Program-made: the position numbers and the translations under genes
The notes under the pieces: model-generated
What the model saw: the letters and a program-made list of their open reading frames with translations, nothing else
What the model was told of the DNA's origin: nothing
Databases searched by the model: none
Shown here: in pieces, positions 17,439 to 37,401 of the stretch
Position numbering within the stretch: the first letter of the stretch is position 1
Layout: every line of letters begins with the position of its first letter
Assembly: GCA_030657355.1 (NCBI GenBank)
Contig: CP131056.1
Coordinates: 3,058,501 to 3,122,500 of the forward strand
DNA: 64,000 nucleotides
Reading direction: 5' to 3'
From: Radicibacter daui
GTDB taxonomy: Bacteria; Pseudomonadota; Alphaproteobacteria; Radicibacterales; Radicibacteraceae

Positions 17439-20216
<2,778 letters not shown>

Positions 20217-20304
20217 TCAGGCCCCGGAGGTGTGCGCTTCACACGCAGCAGGGCCTTCGGCCCGAAAGGACCGCCCCGGACAATGTCGGATGGGGGGAAC
20301 GCCC

Positions 20305-20422
20305 TTCGGTCTTCCTACGCCAGTATCAACTGGGTCAGGTTCAAAGGGTCGCTTCACCGTGAACGGGCCATGCCCGCTCCCTGTCAGCCTCTCAGTCCCC
20401 TAAGGCGGGACTCCCCTGACGG
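20305..20422 (-). promoter_or_regulatory. TPP riboswitch (THI element)
   Basis: On the minus strand the conserved blocks appear in order: a P3-type hairpin AGTCCC..GGGACT followed by GAGAGG (the CTGAGAGG box), then ACCCTTTGAACCTGA, then GATACTGGCGTAGGAA. The element ends about 140 nt before thiC. Downstream hairpins, including GGGGCC-TGAT-GGCCCC at 20217-20232, may form the expression platform. A weak -35-like TTGACC lies at 20456-20451 without a good -10. The switch should lower thi operon expression when TPP is plentiful. Confidence 0.95.
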
Positions 20423-20498
20423 GGCGGACCATCGCGCGTTCCAGGCGGGAGGTCAATGATTTGCTCTGCGCGCTTTAACGCAGCTGAATTTTTAAAAC

Positions 20499-20539
20499 AC
20501 CATCACACCGCCGGGCGGCGAGTTGCAGGTTGCTGGCAG
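20499..20539. repeat. Direct repeat: degraded second copy of the fdhD 3' end
   Basis: This stretch matches 20944-20992, the last codons of fdhD, in the same orientation. The alignment has three mismatches and one 8-bp gap in the GC run. The gap breaks the reading frame, so this copy is not functional. The two copies bracket the AT-rich patch 20540-20940. They may mark an insertion or recombination at the fdhD end. Confidence 0.7.
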
Positions 20540-20690
20540 GCATGGCATCGGACTGCGTCACGTGGAGGAGACATGGGATCAAGGACCGTTGCTAATATTG
20601 ATTTTGGCGCGACATCACCAAAATCCGAACGAGGTCCAAAACCAAACTAAAGCTCGGCCGCCAAAATATAAATACCACCTAAAGCTATTG

Positions 20691-20864
20691 CTATTTTCTG
20701 ACCCTTAAAACAATTCCAACCCACATTACGCCTGATACAAAAGAAATAAAAAACAATCTATCTGCGCTTATCCCGAATAGACTAAAATTAAATAATAATT
20801 GATTCAATTTAAAAATAACAATTATTAAAACAACAATTCCTGCAATAAGGCGATCACGATTCAT
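20691..20864 (-). CDS. Small AT-rich two-helix membrane protein, possibly frameshifted
   Basis: This is a 57-codon ORF starting MNRDRLIAGIVVLIIVIFKL, with two hydrophobic segments (about 6-18 and 38-53) and a basic end RVRK. GGGA lies 7 nt before the ATG. Base composition is far more AT-rich than everything around it, which suggests foreign origin. Adding one base to the AAAA run at its end would continue the frame through IAIALGGIYILAAEL to a stop at 20647, giving a 71-residue three-helix protein. It is therefore either a complete small protein, a gene broken by one base, or a site of programmed slippage. I recognise no family. Confidence 0.5.
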   Translation of the reverse strand: MNRDRLIAGIVVLIIVIFKLNQLLFNFSLFGISADRLFFISFVSGVMWVGIVLRVRK

Positions 20865-20936
20865 AATTTCCCGCGCCTCTTCTGTCGAATATCACCCAGT
20901 TCACAACTGGAATCCGCATAATTCTAAACTTCGGCG

Positions 20937-21791
20937 TCAGAATACCATCAAACCGCCGGGCGCGCGGGCGGCAAGCTGCAGGTTGCTGGCAGCCGCCAGT
21001 TGCAAGGCAAGTGCCGTGGGAGCGGACAGGGTTACCAGCGCCGGCACGCCGGCAATCGCCGCCTTCTGCACCAGCTCGAAACTGCAGCGGCTGGACATCA
21101 CGATAAAGCCGTCGGCCGGGTCCTGCCCGCCGCGCAGCAACGCGCCGATCAGCTTGTCGAGCGCGTTGTGGCGGCCAACATCCTCCCGCGACAGGCGGAT
21201 GGCGCCGGTCTCGGTATCACACCACATCGCGGCGTGAACCGAGCGGGTTTCGGCGTTGAGCGGCTGCCAAGCCGGCATGGCATCGAGCGCCGCCAGCATG
21301 ATGTCAGGCGCAACCTCGCGCGGGCAGCTGACGGGCTTCGGGTTCCTCACCGCTTCGGCAAGGGTCGCCACGCCACACAGGCCGCAGCCGGTACGCCCGG
21401 AAATCTCGCGCTGGCTTTCGGCGCGGCGCTCCCCGGCCTTGCCCGCAACGGTCGTGATCTCCACGCCGTAACCGATGCAGCCCGGCACCAGCTCCATGGC
21501 GGCGATGTCACCGGCCGTGGCGACATAACCCTCGGTCACGGCAAAACCGGTGGCAAAATCATCGAGATCCGCCGGTGTCGTCATCATGACCACGGAAGCC
21601 GCGCCATCAAAGCGCAAGGCAACCGGCACTTCCTCCGCCACCGCCCAGCGCCGGTCTTCCGGCCATCCGCCGGAGCGCGCATGAAAGCGCCCTCCGGTCA
21701 GCAGGCTGACTTTGAAGTCAGGTTGGGCTTCGGCACCGGGCGACTGCGTCTCCTCGTCGCCGGCCAGCGGAAGGGGAAAAGAAAGGTTCAC
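20937..21791 (-). CDS. fdhD: Formate dehydrogenase accessory sulfurtransferase FdhD
   Basis: This 284-residue protein transfers sulfur to the molybdenum cofactor for formate-dehydrogenase-type enzymes. The reactive motif CGLC is at 136-139 in SGRTGCGLCG, and the C-terminal region has DVGRHNALDKL and SRCSFELVQKA. It overlaps the end of the adjacent molybdoenzyme gene as ATGA, so the two are co-translated. Its last 50 bp are duplicated, imperfectly, 400 bp downstream. Confidence 0.95.
   Translation of the reverse strand: MNLSFPLPLAGDEETQSPGAEAQPDFKVSLLTGGRFHARSGGWPEDRRWAVAEEVPVALRFDGAASVVMMTTPADLDDFATGFAVTEGYVATAGDIAAMELVPGCIGYGVEITTVAGKAGERRAESQREISGRTGCGLCGVATLAEAVRNPKPVSCPREVAPDIMLAALDAMPAWQPLNAETRSVHAAMWCDTETGAIRLSREDVGRHNALDKLIGALLRGGQDPADGFIVMSSRCSFELVQKAAIAGVPALVTLSAPTALALQLAAASNLQLAARAPGGLMVF
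20944..20992. repeat. Direct repeat: fdhD 3' end, intact copy
   Basis: This is the intact partner of the degraded copy at 20499-20539. It encodes the C-terminal residues of FdhD. Confidence 0.7.
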
Positions 21792-29164: not shown

Positions 29165-32100
29165 ATGGCAACGATTGCGTTTACCTCAACCCGTAGCTTT
29201 CCCGGCTTCGACATGCGCGAAGGCGGTTTTCCGGTAGCTGATGTCGCTCGCTCCATCACGAGAAGCACCACGCAATTCAAGCTCGTCTATTCAGACGGCG
29301 GATATGATGACCTGACAGGCACTGGCTTCACCTACGACGAAAATGGTGACCCGACCGGCGGCACCATCACCGGCTGGACGGCGGGTGATGCGGGCAAGCA
29401 GTTTGCCTCCCTGACCATCAACATCTCCGTCAGCGATTTTCTGACCTTTGCCGAGAATGACGACTGGAATGGCCTGATGGCGTTCGCCCTTGGCGGCGAC
29501 GATCAAGTCTCGGGCACAAAAGGCAACGATTACCTTCTTGGTTTCGACGGTAACGACACGCTGAACGGCGGTGCGGGTGCGGATACGCTTGTGGGCGGTG
29601 CCGGCGACGATACCTATATCATCGACAATGCCCGCGACGGCGTAATAGAGGCCGGTGGCGAAGGCACGGACCTCATCCAGTCCAGTGTCAGCATCAATCT
29701 CTCCTCCAGCACCTTCAGCGGCCAGGAGATCGAGAATGTCACCCTCACCGGCAAGGCATCGCTGAGCATCACCGGCAATGAGCTGGACAACACCCTTACC
29801 GGCAATGCCGGCGCCAATGTGATCGATGGCGGAACCGGCGCAGACACCATGATCGGCGGGGCCGGCAACGACACCTATGTCATCGATGATGCCGGCGACA
29901 CCGTCACCGAACTCGCCAATGGCGGCACCGACCTCATCAAGGCCAGCGTCTCCATCGATCTGGCCGACTATGCCAATGTCGAGAACATCACCCTCACCGG
30001 TACCGGCAACATCGACGCCACCGGAAACGATGGAGCCAACATCCTCACCGGCAACGACGGCAACAACATCCTCGATGGCGGGCTGGGCGCCGACACGATG
30101 ACCGGTGGTCTCGGCGATGACACCTATGTCGTCGACAACATCAAGGACAAGGTCGTCGAAGCAAAGACCGGCACCGCCGGCGGTACCGATACCGTCCAGA
30201 CCAGTCTGGCCAGCTACAGCATCGCCAGCCTCAAGGGCATCGAGAACCTGACCTATACCGGGTCATCGAACTTCACCGGCACTGGAAACACCCTGGCCAA
30301 TATCCTTACCGGCGGCAGCGGCAATGATATGCTGAACGGCGGTGCAGGCGCAGACAGCCTTATCGGCGGTGGTGGCGACGATACCTATATCATCGACAAT
30401 ATTGGCGACACCGTCACCGAAGCCGATGGCGAAGGCACCGACCTCATCCAGTCCAGCGTATCCATCGACCTCTCCGCCGGCGGCTTCGCCGGACAGGAGA
30501 TCGAGAATATCACCCTCACCGGCAAGGCAGCCATCAACGCGACCGGAAACGAGCTCGACAACATTCTCACCGGCAATGCCGGCGCCAATATCCTTACCGG
30601 CGGCGAAGGTAACGACACGCTGAACGGCGGTGCGGGTGCGGATACGCTTGTGGGCGGTGCCGGCGACGATACCTATATCATCGACAATGCCCGCGACGGC
30701 GTAATAGAGGCCGGTGGCGAAGGCACGGACCTCATCCAGTCCAGTGTCAGCATCAATCTCTCCTCCAGCACCTTCAGCGGCCAGGAGATCGAGAATGTCA
30801 CCCTCACCGGCAAGGCATCGCTGAGCATCACCGGCAATGAGCTGGACAACACCCTTACCGGCAATGCCGGCGCCAATGTGATCGATGGCGGAACCGGCGC
30901 AGACACCATGATCGGCGGGGCCGGCAACGACACCTATGTCATCGATGATGCCGGCGACACCGTCACCGAACTCGCCAATGGCGGCACCGACCTCATCAAG
31001 GCCAGCGTCTCCATCGATCTGGCCGACTATGCCAATGTCGAGAACATCACCCTCACCGGTACCGGCAACATCGACGCCACCGGAAACGATGGAGCCAACA
31101 TCCTCACCGGCAACGACGGCAACAACATCCTCGATGGCGGGCTGGGCGCCGACACGATGACCGGTGGTCTCGGCGATGACACCTATGTCGTCGACAACAT
31201 CAAGGACAAGGTCGTCGAAGCAAAGACCGGCACCGCCGGCGGTACCGATACCGTCCAGACCAGTCTGGCCAGCTACAGCATCGCCAGCCTCAAGGGCATC
31301 GAGAACCTGACCTATACCGGGTCATCGAACTTCACCGGCACTGGAAACACCCTGGCCAATATCCTTACCGGCGGCAGCGGCAATGATATGCTGAACGGCG
31401 GTGCAGGCGCAGACAGCCTTATCGGCGGTGGTGGCGACGATACCTATATCATCGACAATATTGGCGACACCGTCACCGAAGCCGATGGCGAAGGCACCGA
31501 CCTCATCCAGTCCAGCGTATCCATCGACCTCTCCGCCGGCGGCTTCGCCGGACAGGAGATCGAGAATATCACCCTCACCGGCAAGGCAGCCATCAACGCG
31601 ACCGGAAACGAGCTCGACAACATTCTCACCGGCAATGCCGGCGCCAATATCCTTACCGGCGGCGAAGGTAACGACACGCTGAACGGCGGTGCGGGTGCGG
31701 ATACGCTTGTGGGCGGTGCCGGCGACGATATCCTGATCGGCGGCGCCGGCAACGACACCTATATTATCAGCCAGGGCGACGGTTTCGATACCATCACCGC
31801 CGGCTCCTATAATACCGGGGATATCATCAGGTTCACTGATGCGGATCGTTATGACCTCTGGTTTGACGTTTCCCCTGACGGCACATTGACCCTCGCCGCT
31901 GCCGCGAATGAAAATTTCGATCCCGACACGGATGAATATCTGACTGTGGAGAGTTTTTTCGGCGGCACTGGCTCCATCACGGTGCAGATCGACACTTCCG
32001 ACAATGAATATTACGGCACGAACGCGGATCTCGCGACCATCGTGATCCAGCGCGGCCTCAATGGCACCAACAACAAGAACACCGCCGAGATCATCATCGG

Positions 32101-33643
32101 CACCACCGGAAACGATGTCATCAACGGTAACGGCGGCTATCATGACGAACTCTATGGCGGCAGTGGAAACGACACCATTAATGCAGGATACGGCGACGAT
32201 TACCTGTCCGGTGGATCAGGAGATGACATCCTCCGTAGTGGAGCCGGCGACGATGTTCTCTATGGCGGCACCGGAAACGACACCCTCGACGGTGGCGCCG
32301 GATATGACGTTGCCTACTATTCTTCATCCACTAGCGGCGTAACAGCGTCCGTGTCATGGGACGGCAGACACCTCACCGGCACGGTCAGCGATGGCCTTGG
32401 CGGCACCGACACCCTGATCGATGTCGAAGCGATTGTCGGTTCATCCTATGACGACACACTGACGGTCGACGATTATGGGATAATTCTGGTTGGCGGTGAC
32501 GGCAACGATACCTTGAAGACAAGCGCCTACAGCATTCTCTATGGCGACGGCGGTAACGACACCCTGACAGCCGACTTCCAGAGTGAGCTCTATGGCGGAG
32601 AAGGTGATGACAAGTTAACGGCGGGCGCCAACAGTTACCTGGAGGGTGATGATGGCGACGACACACTCAACGCCGGTGGATACAGTATCCTTTATGGCGA
32701 TGCCGGCAATGATACCCTCACGGCAGGCGAGCAGAGCAACCTCTATGGCGGTGATGACGACGACACACTCACCGCCGGTGGATACAGTATCCTTTATGGC
32801 GATGCCGGCAATGACACCCTCAGGGCCGGCGTGCAGAGCAATCTCTATGGCGGTGATGGCGACGATACGCTAACTGCCGCGAGCTACAGCTATCTCGAAG
32901 GGGGCGATGGCAATGACACCCTTGGAACAGGCAGTTACAGCTACCTGGACGGCGGAGCAGGCAATGACACTCTAAGCGCCTATAGTAATAGCACCGTAAA
33001 TGGTGGCGATGGTGATGATTATATTACTGCCTGGTTTGATTGTTATGTAATGGCCGGCGCCGGGGACGATAACGTTACCGGAGGCGGGTATATATATGGT
33101 GAAGACGGTAACGATACCATTTCCATTTCCGGCACGGGCTATGAAGTAGATGGAGGGTCCGGAGATGATAAAATATACGGAAACACTTACTCCGACACTA
33201 TGTATGGTGGCATCGGTGATGACATTCTTGATGGTTACAACGGCGACGATTATTTGAGTGGTGGCGATGGGGATGACTATTTAATTGGCAACCTCGGAGA
33301 CGACTATTTGATCGGTGGCGCCGGTAGCGATATTTTTTCTTATTATATAATTCCCGGCTTTTCCGACGGAAACGACGTGATTGCCGACTTTGAAATCGGC
33401 ACAGACACGCTGAAATTCGCCGGCGTGTATGATGCAGATGGGAGTGGAAGTGTCGACATCGATGATTTAATTCAATGGATATCAAGCATTACAGATGCGG
33501 GATCCGGTCAGGATGTTACGGTTAATTTTCAAGAGGGTGGAAAGTTAACATTTTCCGGAATTGGGACGGGGTCAATAAACTCAATAGATCAGATCGTTTC
33601 AGACAGTAATCACATAATAATATCTTCATCTTCAATTAGATAA
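29165..33643 (+). CDS. Large RTX (hemolysin-type calcium-binding repeat) protein
   Basis: This 1492-residue secreted protein is built from GGxGxDxLx nonapeptides, with blocks of NDTYVIDDAGDTVTE type repeated every 90-100 residues. It has no Sec signal, as expected for type I secretion. Residues about 129-855 include two apparently identical 353-residue units plus the start of a third. A stretch of YSILYGDAGNDTLTAG-type repeats follows at about 1120-1260. Near the C-terminus an EF-hand-like loop DADGSGSVDIDDL precedes a Ser/Ile-rich tail, probably the secretion signal. The ribosome-binding site is AGGAAAG. No enzymatic domain is visible, so an adhesin or surface-layer role is more likely than a toxin. 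The last 700 bp are more AT-rich than the rest. Confidence 0.93.
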   Translation: MATIAFTSTRSFPGFDMREGGFPVADVARSITRSTTQFKLVYSDGGYDDLTGTGFTYDENGDPTGGTITGWTAGDAGKQFASLTINISVSDFLTFAENDDWNGLMAFALGGDDQVSGTKGNDYLLGFDGNDTLNGGAGADTLVGGAGDDTYIIDNARDGVIEAGGEGTDLIQSSVSINLSSSTFSGQEIENVTLTGKASLSITGNELDNTLTGNAGANVIDGGTGADTMIGGAGNDTYVIDDAGDTVTELANGGTDLIKASVSIDLADYANVENITLTGTGNIDATGNDGANILTGNDGNNILDGGLGADTMTGGLGDDTYVVDNIKDKVVEAKTGTAGGTDTVQTSLASYSIASLKGIENLTYTGSSNFTGTGNTLANILTGGSGNDMLNGGAGADSLIGGGGDDTYIIDNIGDTVTEADGEGTDLIQSSVSIDLSAGGFAGQEIENITLTGKAAINATGNELDNILTGNAGANILTGGEGNDTLNGGAGADTLVGGAGDDTYIIDNARDGVIEAGGEGTDLIQSSVSINLSSSTFSGQEIENVTLTGKASLSITGNELDNTLTGNAGANVIDGGTGADTMIGGAGNDTYVIDDAGDTVTELANGGTDLIKASVSIDLADYANVENITLTGTGNIDATGNDGANILTGNDGNNILDGGLGADTMTGGLGDDTYVVDNIKDKVVEAKTGTAGGTDTVQTSLASYSIASLKGIENLTYTGSSNFTGTGNTLANILTGGSGNDMLNGGAGADSLIGGGGDDTYIIDNIGDTVTEADGEGTDLIQSSVSIDLSAGGFAGQEIENITLTGKAAINATGNELDNILTGNAGANILTGGEGNDTLNGGAGADTLVGGAGDDILIGGAGNDTYIISQGDGFDTITAGSYNTGDIIRFTDADRYDLWFDVSPDGTLTLAAAANENFDPDTDEYLTVESFFGGTGSITVQIDTSDNEYYGTNADLATIVIQRGLNGTNNKNTAEIIIGTTGNDVINGNGGYHDELYGGSGNDTINAGYGDDYLSGGSGDDILRSGAGDDVLYGGTGNDTLDGGAGYDVAYYSSSTSGVTASVSWDGRHLTGTVSDGLGGTDTLIDVEAIVGSSYDDTLTVDDYGIILVGGDGNDTLKTSAYSILYGDGGNDTLTADFQSELYGGEGDDKLTAGANSYLEGDDGDDTLNAGGYSILYGDAGNDTLTAGEQSNLYGGDDDDTLTAGGYSILYGDAGNDTLRAGVQSNLYGGDGDDTLTAASYSYLEGGDGNDTLGTGSYSYLDGGAGNDTLSAYSNSTVNGGDGDDYITAWFDCYVMAGAGDDNVTGGGYIYGEDGNDTISISGTGYEVDGGSGDDKIYGNTYSDTMYGGIGDDILDGYNGDDYLSGGDGDDYLIGNLGDDYLIGGAGSDIFSYYIIPGFSDGNDVIADFEIGTDTLKFAGVYDADGSGSVDIDDLIQWISSITDAGSGQDVTVNFQEGGKLTFSGIGTGSINSIDQIVSDSNHIIISSSSIR
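29549..31730 (+). repeat. 1059-bp tandem duplication inside the RTX gene
   Basis: The sequence from 29549 recurs at 30608 and again at 31667, where it ends after about 64 bp (2.06 copies). Reading the copies side by side I find no base difference. The period is 353 codons, so the frame is kept. Such identity implies a very recent event, gene conversion, or an assembly error. Confidence 0.95.
32661..32864 (+). repeat. 102-bp imperfect tandem repeat in the RTX gene
   Basis: Two adjacent 102-bp units (34 codons each) begin ACACACTC, at 32661 and 32763, and differ at scattered bases. They encode the GGYSILYGDAGNDTL type of RTX repeat. They show the same expansion process as the 1059-bp repeat, but older. 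Confidence 0.75.
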
Positions 33644-33731
33644 CTGAAAAACGGTGGAATTAACGGCAAAATATGCACATCAAAGCTAAAATATAGCACT
33701 AATATTAAAATAAAAGCTACCATAAACGGAG

Positions 33732-35906
33732 ATGAGTGTGTCGACTGCTATTCAACCTCCGGGCATCGGCCACGAACCTCCGACTGATTTGATACTCCAG
33801 ACAAACTCACTTTCACTTCTTTTTCGCCTTCATGGTCTCGCCCTAAGCGCCGATACGCTAACACGAGAGATTGCCGGGCAATCAAAGATAGGCCTCGACG
33901 GCGCCGTCCGCCTAGTCCGCCGCCACGGCCTTAAAGCCCGCCGTATCACCAGCCGCTTCGACCGGCTGCCAGGCACCCCCCTGCCCGCGCTGGCACAAAC
34001 CCTCGATGGCAGCCTGGTGATCGTCGCCAGGGTTACGGCGGACAAGGTGCTGATCCATCGTGGACAGGACAGCCGGCCGGAGCTTATGGACCGGGCAGCG
34101 TTCGAGGCCGAATGGGACGGCTCGCTGGTGCTGGTGACCAAGCGGCTGGCACTCTCCGATCTCGGCCGGCGCTTCAACCTCTCCTGGTTTGCCTCCGCCC
34201 TCTACAAATACCGCGGCATCTTCTCCCAGATCCTGCTGGCCTCCTTCTTCCTGCAACTTCTGGGACTGGTGTCCCCGCTCTTCTTCCAGGTCGTCGTCGA
34301 CAAGGTGCTGGTGCATCACGGCCTGTCCACGCTCGATGTGCTGCTAATCGGGCTGGTGACGGTTTCGCTGTTCGAAACCGTGCTCGGCATCGTGCGCACC
34401 TACCTCTTTTCCCACACCACCAACCGCATCGATGTCGAGCTTGGAGCGCGGCTCTTTGCCCATCTGCTGGCGCTGCCGCTCGCCTACTTCGGCAGCCGGC
34501 GGGTGGGGGACAGCGTGGCGCGGGTACGCGAGCTGGAAAACATCCGCCAGTTCATTACCGGCTCCAGCCTCACCTTCGTCATCGATCTTGTCTTCACGCT
34601 GGTCTTTCTGGCGGTCATGGCCTGGTACGACCTGTGGCTGACGGCAATCGTCGTCGCTTCGCTGCCGCTTTATGCCGGTATCAGCCTCGCCCTGACGCCG
34701 CTGTTCCGGGCCGAGCTGGACCGCAAGTTCCGCCGCGGAGCGGAAAACCAGTCCTTCCTCGTCGAGGCCATCACCGGCATCGAGACGCTGAAGGCAATGG
34801 CGGTGGAGCCGCAGGCCCGCCGGCAATGGGAAGAGCAGCTGGCAGCCTATGTCACCTCTTCCTTCCGGGTCAGCAATCTCGGCAACTATGCCAGCAACAT
34901 CATCCAGCTCGTCTCCAAGGTCGCCAGTGCCGCCATCCTGTTCTTCGGCGCCAAGGCGGTGATGGAGGGCAGCCTGACGGTGGGTGAGCTGGTGGCCTTC
35001 AACATGTTTGCCGGCCGCGTGGCCCAGCCGGTGCTGCGCCTTGCCCAGGTGTGGCAGGATTTTCATCAGGCCCGGCTTTCCATCGAACGTCTTGGCGATA
35101 TCCTCAACACCCCGCCGGAACCCGCGCACTCGGCCACCCGCGCCACCCTGCCCCGTATCAAGGGGAATATCCGTTTCGAGCAAGTGGATTTCCGCTATCA
35201 GCCCGACGGGCCGGAAATCATCCGCAAACTCACCCTGGCGATCGAGGCCGGCCAGTCCGTCGGCATCGTCGGCTCTTCCGGTTCAGGCAAATCCACGCTC
35301 GCCAAGCTGGTGCAGCGGCTTTATGTGCCGGGTAACGGGCGCGTTCTTGTGGATGGCGTCGACCTTGCCATGGTGAATACCAGCTGGCTGCGTCAGCAGA
35401 TCGGCGTCGTGCTGCAGGAAAATGTGCTGTTCAACCGCTCGGTGCGCGAGAACATCGCCCTTACCGATCCGGGCATGCCGATGGAGCGGATCCTCCAGGC
35501 GGCCCGCCTTGCCGGCGCACATGAGTTTATCCTGAAGTTGCCGGAAGGTTACGACACCCGCATCGCGGAGCGCGGCGCCACCCTTTCGGGCGGCCAGCGC
35601 CAGCGCATTGCCATTGCCCGCGCCCTGGTGACCGACCCGCGCATCCTCATTTTCGACGAAGCCACCAGCGCCCTCGATATCGAGAGCGAGCAGGCCATCC
35701 AGCGCAACATGCGCTTCATCAGTAAGGACCGCACGGTCCTGATCATCGCACACCGCCTCTCCACCGTGCGCCATTGCGACCGCATCCTCACCATCGAGAA
35801 CGGCATGCTGATCGAGGATGGCAGCCACGAGGAGCTGCTGCGCCGGGGCGGGCGGTATGCCGCGCTCCACCGCGCCCAGTCCGGGGAGATCAGCGGTGTC
35901 GCCTGA
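33732..35906 (+). CDS. Type I secretion ABC transporter (HlyB-like)
   Basis: The 724-residue protein has an N-terminal C39-like domain (about 1-130), a membrane domain (about 150-440) and an ATPase domain. The C39-like domain lacks the catalytic Cys: the position reads NSLSLLFRLHG. It is thus a non-cleaving substrate-binding domain, as in HlyB. The ATPase has Walker A GSSGSGKST, signature LSGGQRQRIAIARAL and Walker B ILIFDEATSAL. The annotated ATG touches its GGAG, so the GTG at 33738 with 6-nt spacing is a plausible true start. It lies 88 bp after the RTX gene, its likely cargo. No TolC gene is present here. Confidence 0.95.
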   Translation: MSVSTAIQPPGIGHEPPTDLILQTNSLSLLFRLHGLALSADTLTREIAGQSKIGLDGAVRLVRRHGLKARRITSRFDRLPGTPLPALAQTLDGSLVIVARVTADKVLIHRGQDSRPELMDRAAFEAEWDGSLVLVTKRLALSDLGRRFNLSWFASALYKYRGIFSQILLASFFLQLLGLVSPLFFQVVVDKVLVHHGLSTLDVLLIGLVTVSLFETVLGIVRTYLFSHTTNRIDVELGARLFAHLLALPLAYFGSRRVGDSVARVRELENIRQFITGSSLTFVIDLVFTLVFLAVMAWYDLWLTAIVVASLPLYAGISLALTPLFRAELDRKFRRGAENQSFLVEAITGIETLKAMAVEPQARRQWEEQLAAYVTSSFRVSNLGNYASNIIQLVSKVASAAILFFGAKAVMEGSLTVGELVAFNMFAGRVAQPVLRLAQVWQDFHQARLSIERLGDILNTPPEPAHSATRATLPRIKGNIRFEQVDFRYQPDGPEIIRKLTLAIEAGQSVGIVGSSGSGKSTLAKLVQRLYVPGNGRVLVDGVDLAMVNTSWLRQQIGVVLQENVLFNRSVRENIALTDPGMPMERILQAARLAGAHEFILKLPEGYDTRIAERGATLSGGQRQRIAIARALVTDPRILIFDEATSALDIESEQAIQRNMRFISKDRTVLIIAHRLSTVRHCDRILTIENGMLIEDGSHEELLRRGGRYAALHRAQSGEISGVA

Positions 35907-37401
35907 CAGCCTTGACCGGGACCCCTCCCCCGCGAACAGCGAAACAACACCTCCCCCGGAAACCGCCCGCAGCCCGCAGCCCGGGCGGCGCAAGCTCGCC
36001 TGGGGAGCGGACGAACGCGAATTCCTGCCGGCCGCGCTGGAGATTATCGACACCCCGCCCTCACCGGCCGGCCAGGCAGTGGGTTTGACCATCGCGGCAC
36101 TGGCGACCATCGCCGTCGCCTGGGCCTGCATCGGCAAGCTCGACATCATCGTCGCGGCGCCCGGCAGCATCATTCCCGATGGCAAGACCAAGATCGTGCA
36201 GCCGGTCGAGACCGGCATCGTCAAGGCCATCCATGTTGCCGATGGCGACCATGTCGCGGCGGGCGCTCCGCTGATCGAGCTCAACGACGAGCAGGCGCTG
36301 GCGGACCGGGACCGTTTCCGCCGTGATCTGAAACAGGCCCGGCTGACCCTCTCGCGTTACCGGGGGCTGGCGGCACCCTTTTCAGAAACCGGCAACACTA
36401 CGCCACTGGCGCTGATCGACCCTCCCGGCAATGCGAGCACGGCTGAAATAGCCCTGACACAAACGGCCATGCGGGCTGAAGCTGCCCTGCAGGACGGCAC
36501 GCTGGCGGAGCTCGATCAGCAAGCGGCCGGCAAACGCGCGGAAGCCCAGGAAGCCCAGGCCACCATCGACAAGATCGAGGCCACCCTGCCGATGGTGCGG
36601 CTTCAGGAGCAGATAAGGCGCGAGCTCAAGGACAAGGAGTTCGGCAACAAGCTGGCCTGGTATCAGGCCAACCAGCAGCTCATCGAATATACGCAGGAGC
36701 TGCCGGCTGAACGCAGCCGCAAGCAGGCAGCCGAGGCTGCCGTCTATGCCATCCAGCAGAAACGGGCGGCGGCCGTCGCCCAGTATCAGGTCGACATCCT
36801 GCAACAGCTCGACAAGACGGCAGCGCAGGTGAGTGAGCTGACCGCAGCCCTGATCAAGGCCGAGCAACAGCTCTCGCAGATGACGCTCAGCGCCCCGATC
36901 GATGGCACAGTCCAGCAGCTCGCCATTCATACCGTGGGCGGCGTCGTCACCCCGGCGGAACAGCTGCTTTCGGTCGTCCCCGACCAAGGCAGGCTGGTTG
37001 TGGAAGCCATGATCCAGAACAAGGATGTCGGCTTCGTACGCGCAGGCCAACCCGCCCGGATCAAGATCGACGCCTTCCCGTTCACGCGCTACGGCATCAT
37101 TGAAGGCGCCGTGCTCAATGTGACGCGCGACGCGATCCAGGGTGCCGACAAGAGCAGCGCAACCCGCAAGGCCGCCTCGGCGGCTGGCGACGACAATACC
37201 GGCTCCCGGGATGGCAGCGCCCCCGCCTACATCGCCCGCATCGAACTCGGCACCGACACTATCGAGACGGAAACCGGCCCGGCCCGGCTCGGGCCTGGCA
37301 TGCAGGTTTCGGCGGAAATCCAGACCGGCCAGCGCCGCATCATCGAATATCTGCTCTCACCGATCCTGCGGCGCGTCGATGAAAGCATGCGGGAGCGCTG
37401 A
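35896..37401 (+). CDS. Type I secretion membrane fusion protein (HlyD-like)
   Basis: This is a 501-residue adaptor with a single N-terminal membrane helix (AVGLTIAALATIAVAWACIG), a lipoyl/barrel region (APGSIIPDGKTKIVQPVETG), a long coiled coil (about 170-320) and the C-terminal HlyD signature TRYGIIEGAVLNVTRDAIQG. The start is GTG at 35896, with GGGGAG 7 nt upstream, overlapping the ABC gene by 11 bp. A frame open back to 35818 is not needed. It links the ABC transporter to an outer-membrane TolC encoded elsewhere. Confidence 0.94.
   Translation: MSPDSLDRDPSPANSETTPPPETARSPQPGRRKLAWGADEREFLPAALEIIDTPPSPAGQAVGLTIAALATIAVAWACIGKLDIIVAAPGSIIPDGKTKIVQPVETGIVKAIHVADGDHVAAGAPLIELNDEQALADRDRFRRDLKQARLTLSRYRGLAAPFSETGNTTPLALIDPPGNASTAEIALTQTAMRAEAALQDGTLAELDQQAAGKRAEAQEAQATIDKIEATLPMVRLQEQIRRELKDKEFGNKLAWYQANQQLIEYTQELPAERSRKQAAEAAVYAIQQKRAAAVAQYQVDILQQLDKTAAQVSELTAALIKAEQQLSQMTLSAPIDGTVQQLAIHTVGGVVTPAEQLLSVVPDQGRLVVEAMIQNKDVGFVRAGQPARIKIDAFPFTRYGIIEGAVLNVTRDAIQGADKSSATRKAASAAGDDNTGSRDGSAPAYIARIELGTDTIETETGPARLGPGMQVSAEIQTGQRRIIEYLLSPILRRVDESMRER

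Follow-up and report, generated by a model that had tools for sequence, protein, structure and literature searches.

Integrative elements that insert into the 3′ ends of protein genes, such as e14 in icd, restore the gene end and keep the old end at their far border. Duplicated gene ends were also obtained in Escherichia coli, where the attempts of Amarir-Bouhram et al. (2011) at homology-facilitated illegitimate recombination (HFIR) mostly duplicated the end of the homologous gene over 109-950 bp, an outcome ascribed to a single crossover of a circular molecule without part of the gene end (PMC3240628). In Vibrio cholerae, type VI effector-immunity modules are accompanied by an old gene 3′ end shifted downstream, and the authors proposed a mechanism akin to HFIR (PMC5361080). 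Insertion of foreign DNA with a long target duplication, involving restriction-modification genes in Helicobacter, was described by Nobusato et al. (2000), as cited in PMC1643837.

In Radicibacter daui, the 3′ end of fdhD is duplicated around foreign-looking, AT-rich DNA, and the same layout recurs at three other genes. As in the E. coli products (PMC3240628), the gene is followed by foreign DNA and then by a duplicated 3′ part, with lengths of 109-950 bp in the laboratory and about 50 to >500 bp here; unlike in those experiments, the event here is deduced from sequence that is old and decayed, its donor would have been diverged, and the intermediate is not observed. The Vibrio cholerae displacement is similar in that a new module is joined at a shared gene region and the old 3′ end is moved downstream, whereas here the anchors, which remain intact, are ordinary genes of metabolism and regulation, and the cargoes of the sites are unrelated to one another.

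The duplicated 3′ end of fdhD and the DNA that it encloses

The features of the locus within the window, which is the whole stretch of 64,000 nucleotides analyzed, are as follows (window coordinates).

18360-20159, minus strand: thiC, native flank (Pfam PF01964, E 1e-187; longest open reading frame starting at 20195)
20295-20427, minus strand: TPP riboswitch of thiC, just past the relic, native flank (Rfam RF00059, 56 bits)
20492-20539, minus strand, as fdhD: decayed, 5′-truncated copy of the final part of fdhD (the relic), downstream of the intact one (sequence alignment)
20539-20559, minus strand: possible extra fdhD scraps joined to the relic in gene order, 12 bp (= 21274-21285) and then 9 bp (= 21742-21750)
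20540-20936, no strand: cargo between the two fdhD ends, 397 bp, 39% GC (composition)
20691-20864, minus strand: open reading frame of 57 amino acids with two hydrophobic segments with basic ends, GC3 22%
20937-20992, minus strand: intact copy of the duplicated fdhD 3′ end, a 56-bp block including the stop codon
20937-21791, minus strand: intact fdhD, an FdhD/NarQ family formate dehydrogenase accessory protein (Pfam PF02634, FdhD-NarQ, E 3.2e-61)

The relic matches the end of fdhD at 40 of 44 aligned bases over 20496-20539, or at 42 of 48 if the stop codon is included. These 44-48 bases correspond to 52-56 bp of fdhD, the relic having undergone one 8-bp deletion by which it is frameshifted. 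Their local alignment score of 26 compares with at most 17 (mean 9.2) for 1038 other stretches of the window, so a chance match is ruled out and the duplication of the gene end around the AT-rich DNA is confirmed. The initial annotation had described a degraded, directly oriented copy of 41 bp some 400 bp away; its coordinates and the duplication itself stand, and only the length was slightly short. A profile search with FdhD in the translated frames of the patch gave nothing significant, as expected because the relic is so short.

Six substitutions separate the two copies in the frame of fdhD (CAG/CAA, CTT/CTC, TTG/GTG, GTA/GTG, TTC/TTT and TGA/TAA). Five are silent and the remaining one is a conservative Leu/Val exchange, at a position where Val is common in related FdhD proteins, and the C-terminus of the protein can be aligned with its relatives right to the end. 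Such a prevalence of silent changes suggests that both ends were once parts of working genes and probably diverged as such, although the signal at fdhD alone is weak (P 0.009 if the changes were random, 0.07 if one copy arose by duplication and then decayed). Adjoining the relic, the 12-bp and 9-bp scraps are exact and contiguous matches to fdhD, so that two segments cover 21 bp, compared with a maximum of 18 in 4000 background draws. Their order could mean that the relic is a longer copy of fdhD shrunk by deletions, which is suggestive only, as the comparison was made post hoc.

The DNA between the copies was initially noted as much more AT-rich than its surroundings, which the measurements bear out: with 39% GC over the whole cargo and 36% in its core (20590-20936), it lies in a region of 63% GC and holds the lowest 300-bp GC value of the window (0.353, against 0.628 for the whole window, sd 0.046). 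The cargo is without a recognizable gene, so its presumed foreign origin rests on composition. The open reading frame of 57 amino acids may be a real gene for a small membrane protein or may be due to chance, as an ATG-initiated frame of this size arises in 11% of Markov shuffles. No relatives of it were found in Pfam, phages or viral contigs and none that were convincing in plasmids or in class-wide and phylum-wide genome samples, with no match at E 0.01 or better among the 398 genomes of the phylum-wide sample. Kinship with alphaproteobacterial membrane proteins of ~220 amino acids carrying an SGVMWIG motif was considered and set aside, the recurring matches being weak (E about 0.01-0.5) and unconvincing. 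The genome itself yielded no further significant copy of the patch or of the repeat, and searches of phages, plasmids and viral contigs gave no clear mobile-element match, the plasmid DNA matches listed being short and weak (E >=0.1). In the region beyond the open reading frame, RNA structure is no more stable than in shuffled sequences (z -0.13).

Among the fdhD relatives found, the closest show no more than 57% identity and do not adjoin thiC, and thiC was not found near fdhD in any of the 80 fdhD loci examined. Contig 2 (C2:120090-122357) carries another gene for the molybdopterin oxidoreductase linked to fdhD, with 54% identity, whereas only one fdhD was found in the genome. The other AT-rich spot of the window (33300-33650) is the 3′ end of the gene for a glycine/aspartate-rich repeat protein of 1492 amino acids, and has no flanking repeat. 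This gene is followed by genes for an ABC transporter and a HlyD-like protein, and together they have the look of a type I secretion cluster (29165-37401).

The same layout at three other genes

We read 2.46 Mb of the same chromosome, in a genome of 5.06 Mb. AT-rich patches, defined by a 300-bp GC below 0.42 and with nearby stretches merged, numbered 25. Direct repeats were scanned for at distances of 150-3000 bp between copies, and this range was later widened to 15 kb. In the shorter scan, repeats with an interior GC below 0.45 occurred at three places only (fdhD, a kdpE-like gene and hyuB), and in the stretch read as a whole those with an interior GC below about 0.47 occurred at four sites only. 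The three sites besides fdhD are listed here with their coordinates on the chromosome.

C1:3301823-3301877 and C1:3302847-3302901: 3′ end of a gene for a KdpE-like response regulator (kdpE), 55 bp, 91% identical
C1:3666157-3666375 and C1:3663872-3664090: 3′ end of a hydantoinase/oxoprolinase gene (hyuB), 219 bp, 96% identical
C1:3216808-3222783: Xaa-Pro aminopeptidase-like gene (pepP, a name assigned from the look of the sequence), 505 bp, 92.5% identical, and a 140-bp piece past an internal deletion; from the 15-kb scan

At all four sites, an intact gene is followed by an AT-rich cargo and then by a 5′-truncated relic of the 3′ part of the same gene. Control scans with gene middles and 5′ ends returned mainly the same loci among matches with AT-rich interiors. 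Short-range repeats whose interior GC was ~0.5 or higher, in the regions at 2.74, 2.03 and 3.05 Mb, at first sight resemble tandem paralogues or ordinary duplications and were left aside. A repeat family of up to ~140 bp, with ~15 similar places on the chromosome, has one copy immediately outside the relic of the hydantoinase gene (C1:3663716-3663857).

The cargoes at kdpE, hyuB and pepP have 36-41% GC, and those of the four sites are mutually unrelated. The hyuB cargo holds an open reading frame of 584 amino acids (34% GC) whose distant relatives occur on plasmids of enterobacteria and in two alphaproteobacteria; that at kdpE holds two small AT-rich frames, one of which is weakly DUF6864-like; and that at pepP comprises three AT-rich genes clustered over 3.4 kb which, by eye, resemble those for a dioxygenase, a GSCFA protein and a methyltransferase.

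At kdpE (region C1:3301185-3308903), the relic has a composite structure. The ~80 bp in front of it correspond to the beginning of an SDR gene, of which the intact copy lies 5.3 kb downstream, and the two pieces meet at a common sequence of 4 bp, GCCT. A junction of the non-homologous end with little or no shared sequence is clear at kdpE, while at fdhD it has decayed.

Origin of the duplicated gene ends

In regard to the mechanism leading to such structures, we lean towards the fdhD patch being the decayed scar of an additive recombination with DNA of a near relative, combining homology in a shared gene with illegitimate joining of the other end. The donor molecule would have had the 3′ portion of a diverged but working fdhD, followed by the AT-rich DNA. 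Its fdhD would have recombined with the resident gene by homology, while its other end would have been joined illegitimately, either after circularization of the donor and a single crossover or through HFIR. The product would have been an intact, hybrid fdhD, followed by the AT-rich cargo, a 5′-truncated second fdhD end and thiC, and the redundant end would later have been eroded by deletions and a frameshift. The mechanism itself is already known. A gene of the ComEC family is present in the genome, but such genes are common and little informative.

Several lines of evidence lead us to favor additive recombination between diverged genes followed by decay: the duplication itself, the silent bias, the recurrence of the layout at kdpE, hyuB and pepP, the end of homology near the stop codon, the SDR fusion, and the precedents from the laboratory and from Vibrio. 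Pooled over the four sites, silent changes make up 43 of 63 differences (P 1.3e-10 for random changes, 1.7e-4 for a duplication within the same genome followed by decay of one copy). These orthologue-like differences come mainly from pepP (25 of 38), are weak at fdhD and are absent at kdpE itself (2 of 5), while all 5 differences in the SDR fragment beside it are silent. Homology ends 0, 0, 4 and 19 bp short of the stop codon, much as it might between orthologues of different lineages. The fusion of the SDR piece with the kdpE end is what could be expected if donor DNA from the same neighborhood of a relative's genome had been joined illegitimately to the resident kdpE end, while an attachment site predicts no such structure. 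As additive recombination would also have it, the duplicated gene segments are variable in length, 5′-truncated and situated downstream of an intact copy. On the other side, the fdhD site taken by itself is also compatible with a remnant of an attachment site or with a decayed tandem copy, and the four sites may have different causes. Moreover, every one of the four relics is a 3′ end, an outcome to be expected about 1 time in 16 from a symmetric process, and this leaves room for a preference for gene ends.

The initial annotation took the patch for a remnant of an integrative element that had inserted site-specifically into the 3′ end of fdhD, replaced that end with its own copy and left the old end as its far border, with the integrase and most of the element subsequently lost. 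We consider this unlikely, although several of its observations remain sound: there is a direct repeat of the gene end, fdhD is intact, and the old end lies beyond foreign-looking DNA, just as e14-type elements restore the gene end and keep the old one at the far border. The 3′-end position including the stop codon, the direct orientation and the AT-rich interior agree with it, as does the fact that all four sites are 3′ ends, and the silent bias would fit as well if the element had brought the gene end of a relative. What does not hold up is the specific attribution to an integrase and an attachment site. The initial statement that no integrase lies between the copies is correct, as 20540-20936 contains no such open reading frame, and none of the four cargoes has one; only five tyrosine-recombinase genes (PF00589) were found in the genome, all outside these cargoes. 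Unlike e14-type elements, the sites share no common core or ends: the repeats range from about 50 to >500 bp, the inner ends differ, and the four have neither an inner-end motif nor terminal inverted repeats in common, a comparison that is meaningful only if the four are of one kind. At the sister site kdpE, the relic is joined to a piece of an unrelated host gene; at pepP, it extends as far back as residue ~287 of 616 and has an internal deletion; and phage records lack the fdhD region beyond a short match to fdhD. Integrase-mediated integration is therefore disfavored. A variant, in which the four sites would form one class of very small, integrase-free islands, specific for gene 3′ ends and restoring the gene, with the enzyme supplied from elsewhere, seems to us decidedly improbable.

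A second complete fdhD in tandem could also have lost almost everything but its 3′ end, with the AT-rich DNA being ordinary intergenic sequence or acquired independently. Such an origin would account for the ordered scraps beside the relic, for the silent bias and for the internal deletion in the pepP relic. By itself, however, it leaves the AT-rich cargo between gene and relic unexplained at four genes, and a search of the genome found only one fdhD, so that we regard it as quite unlikely. Insertion with a long target duplication is the least credible explanation, and very improbable: long, variable direct repeats of host sequence around AT-rich inserted genes fit the pattern known from the Helicobacter restriction-modification genes (PMC1643837, PMC3031569), but the differences here are mostly silent where fresh copies should be identical, at each of the four sites the repeats end within 0-19 bp of the stop codon where such a process has no reason to stop, and in none of the cargoes was a restriction-modification gene identified.

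Gene-end relics as a possible signature of imported DNA

Copies of a gene end around AT-rich DNA are easily taken for attachment sites of lost mobile elements. The four sites of this chromosome, one of them with a composite relic, suggest that the same picture can arise by recombination with the DNA of relatives at a shared gene. Relics of gene ends are a simple signature, readable from a single genome, by which small imported segments could be counted and the two routes told apart.
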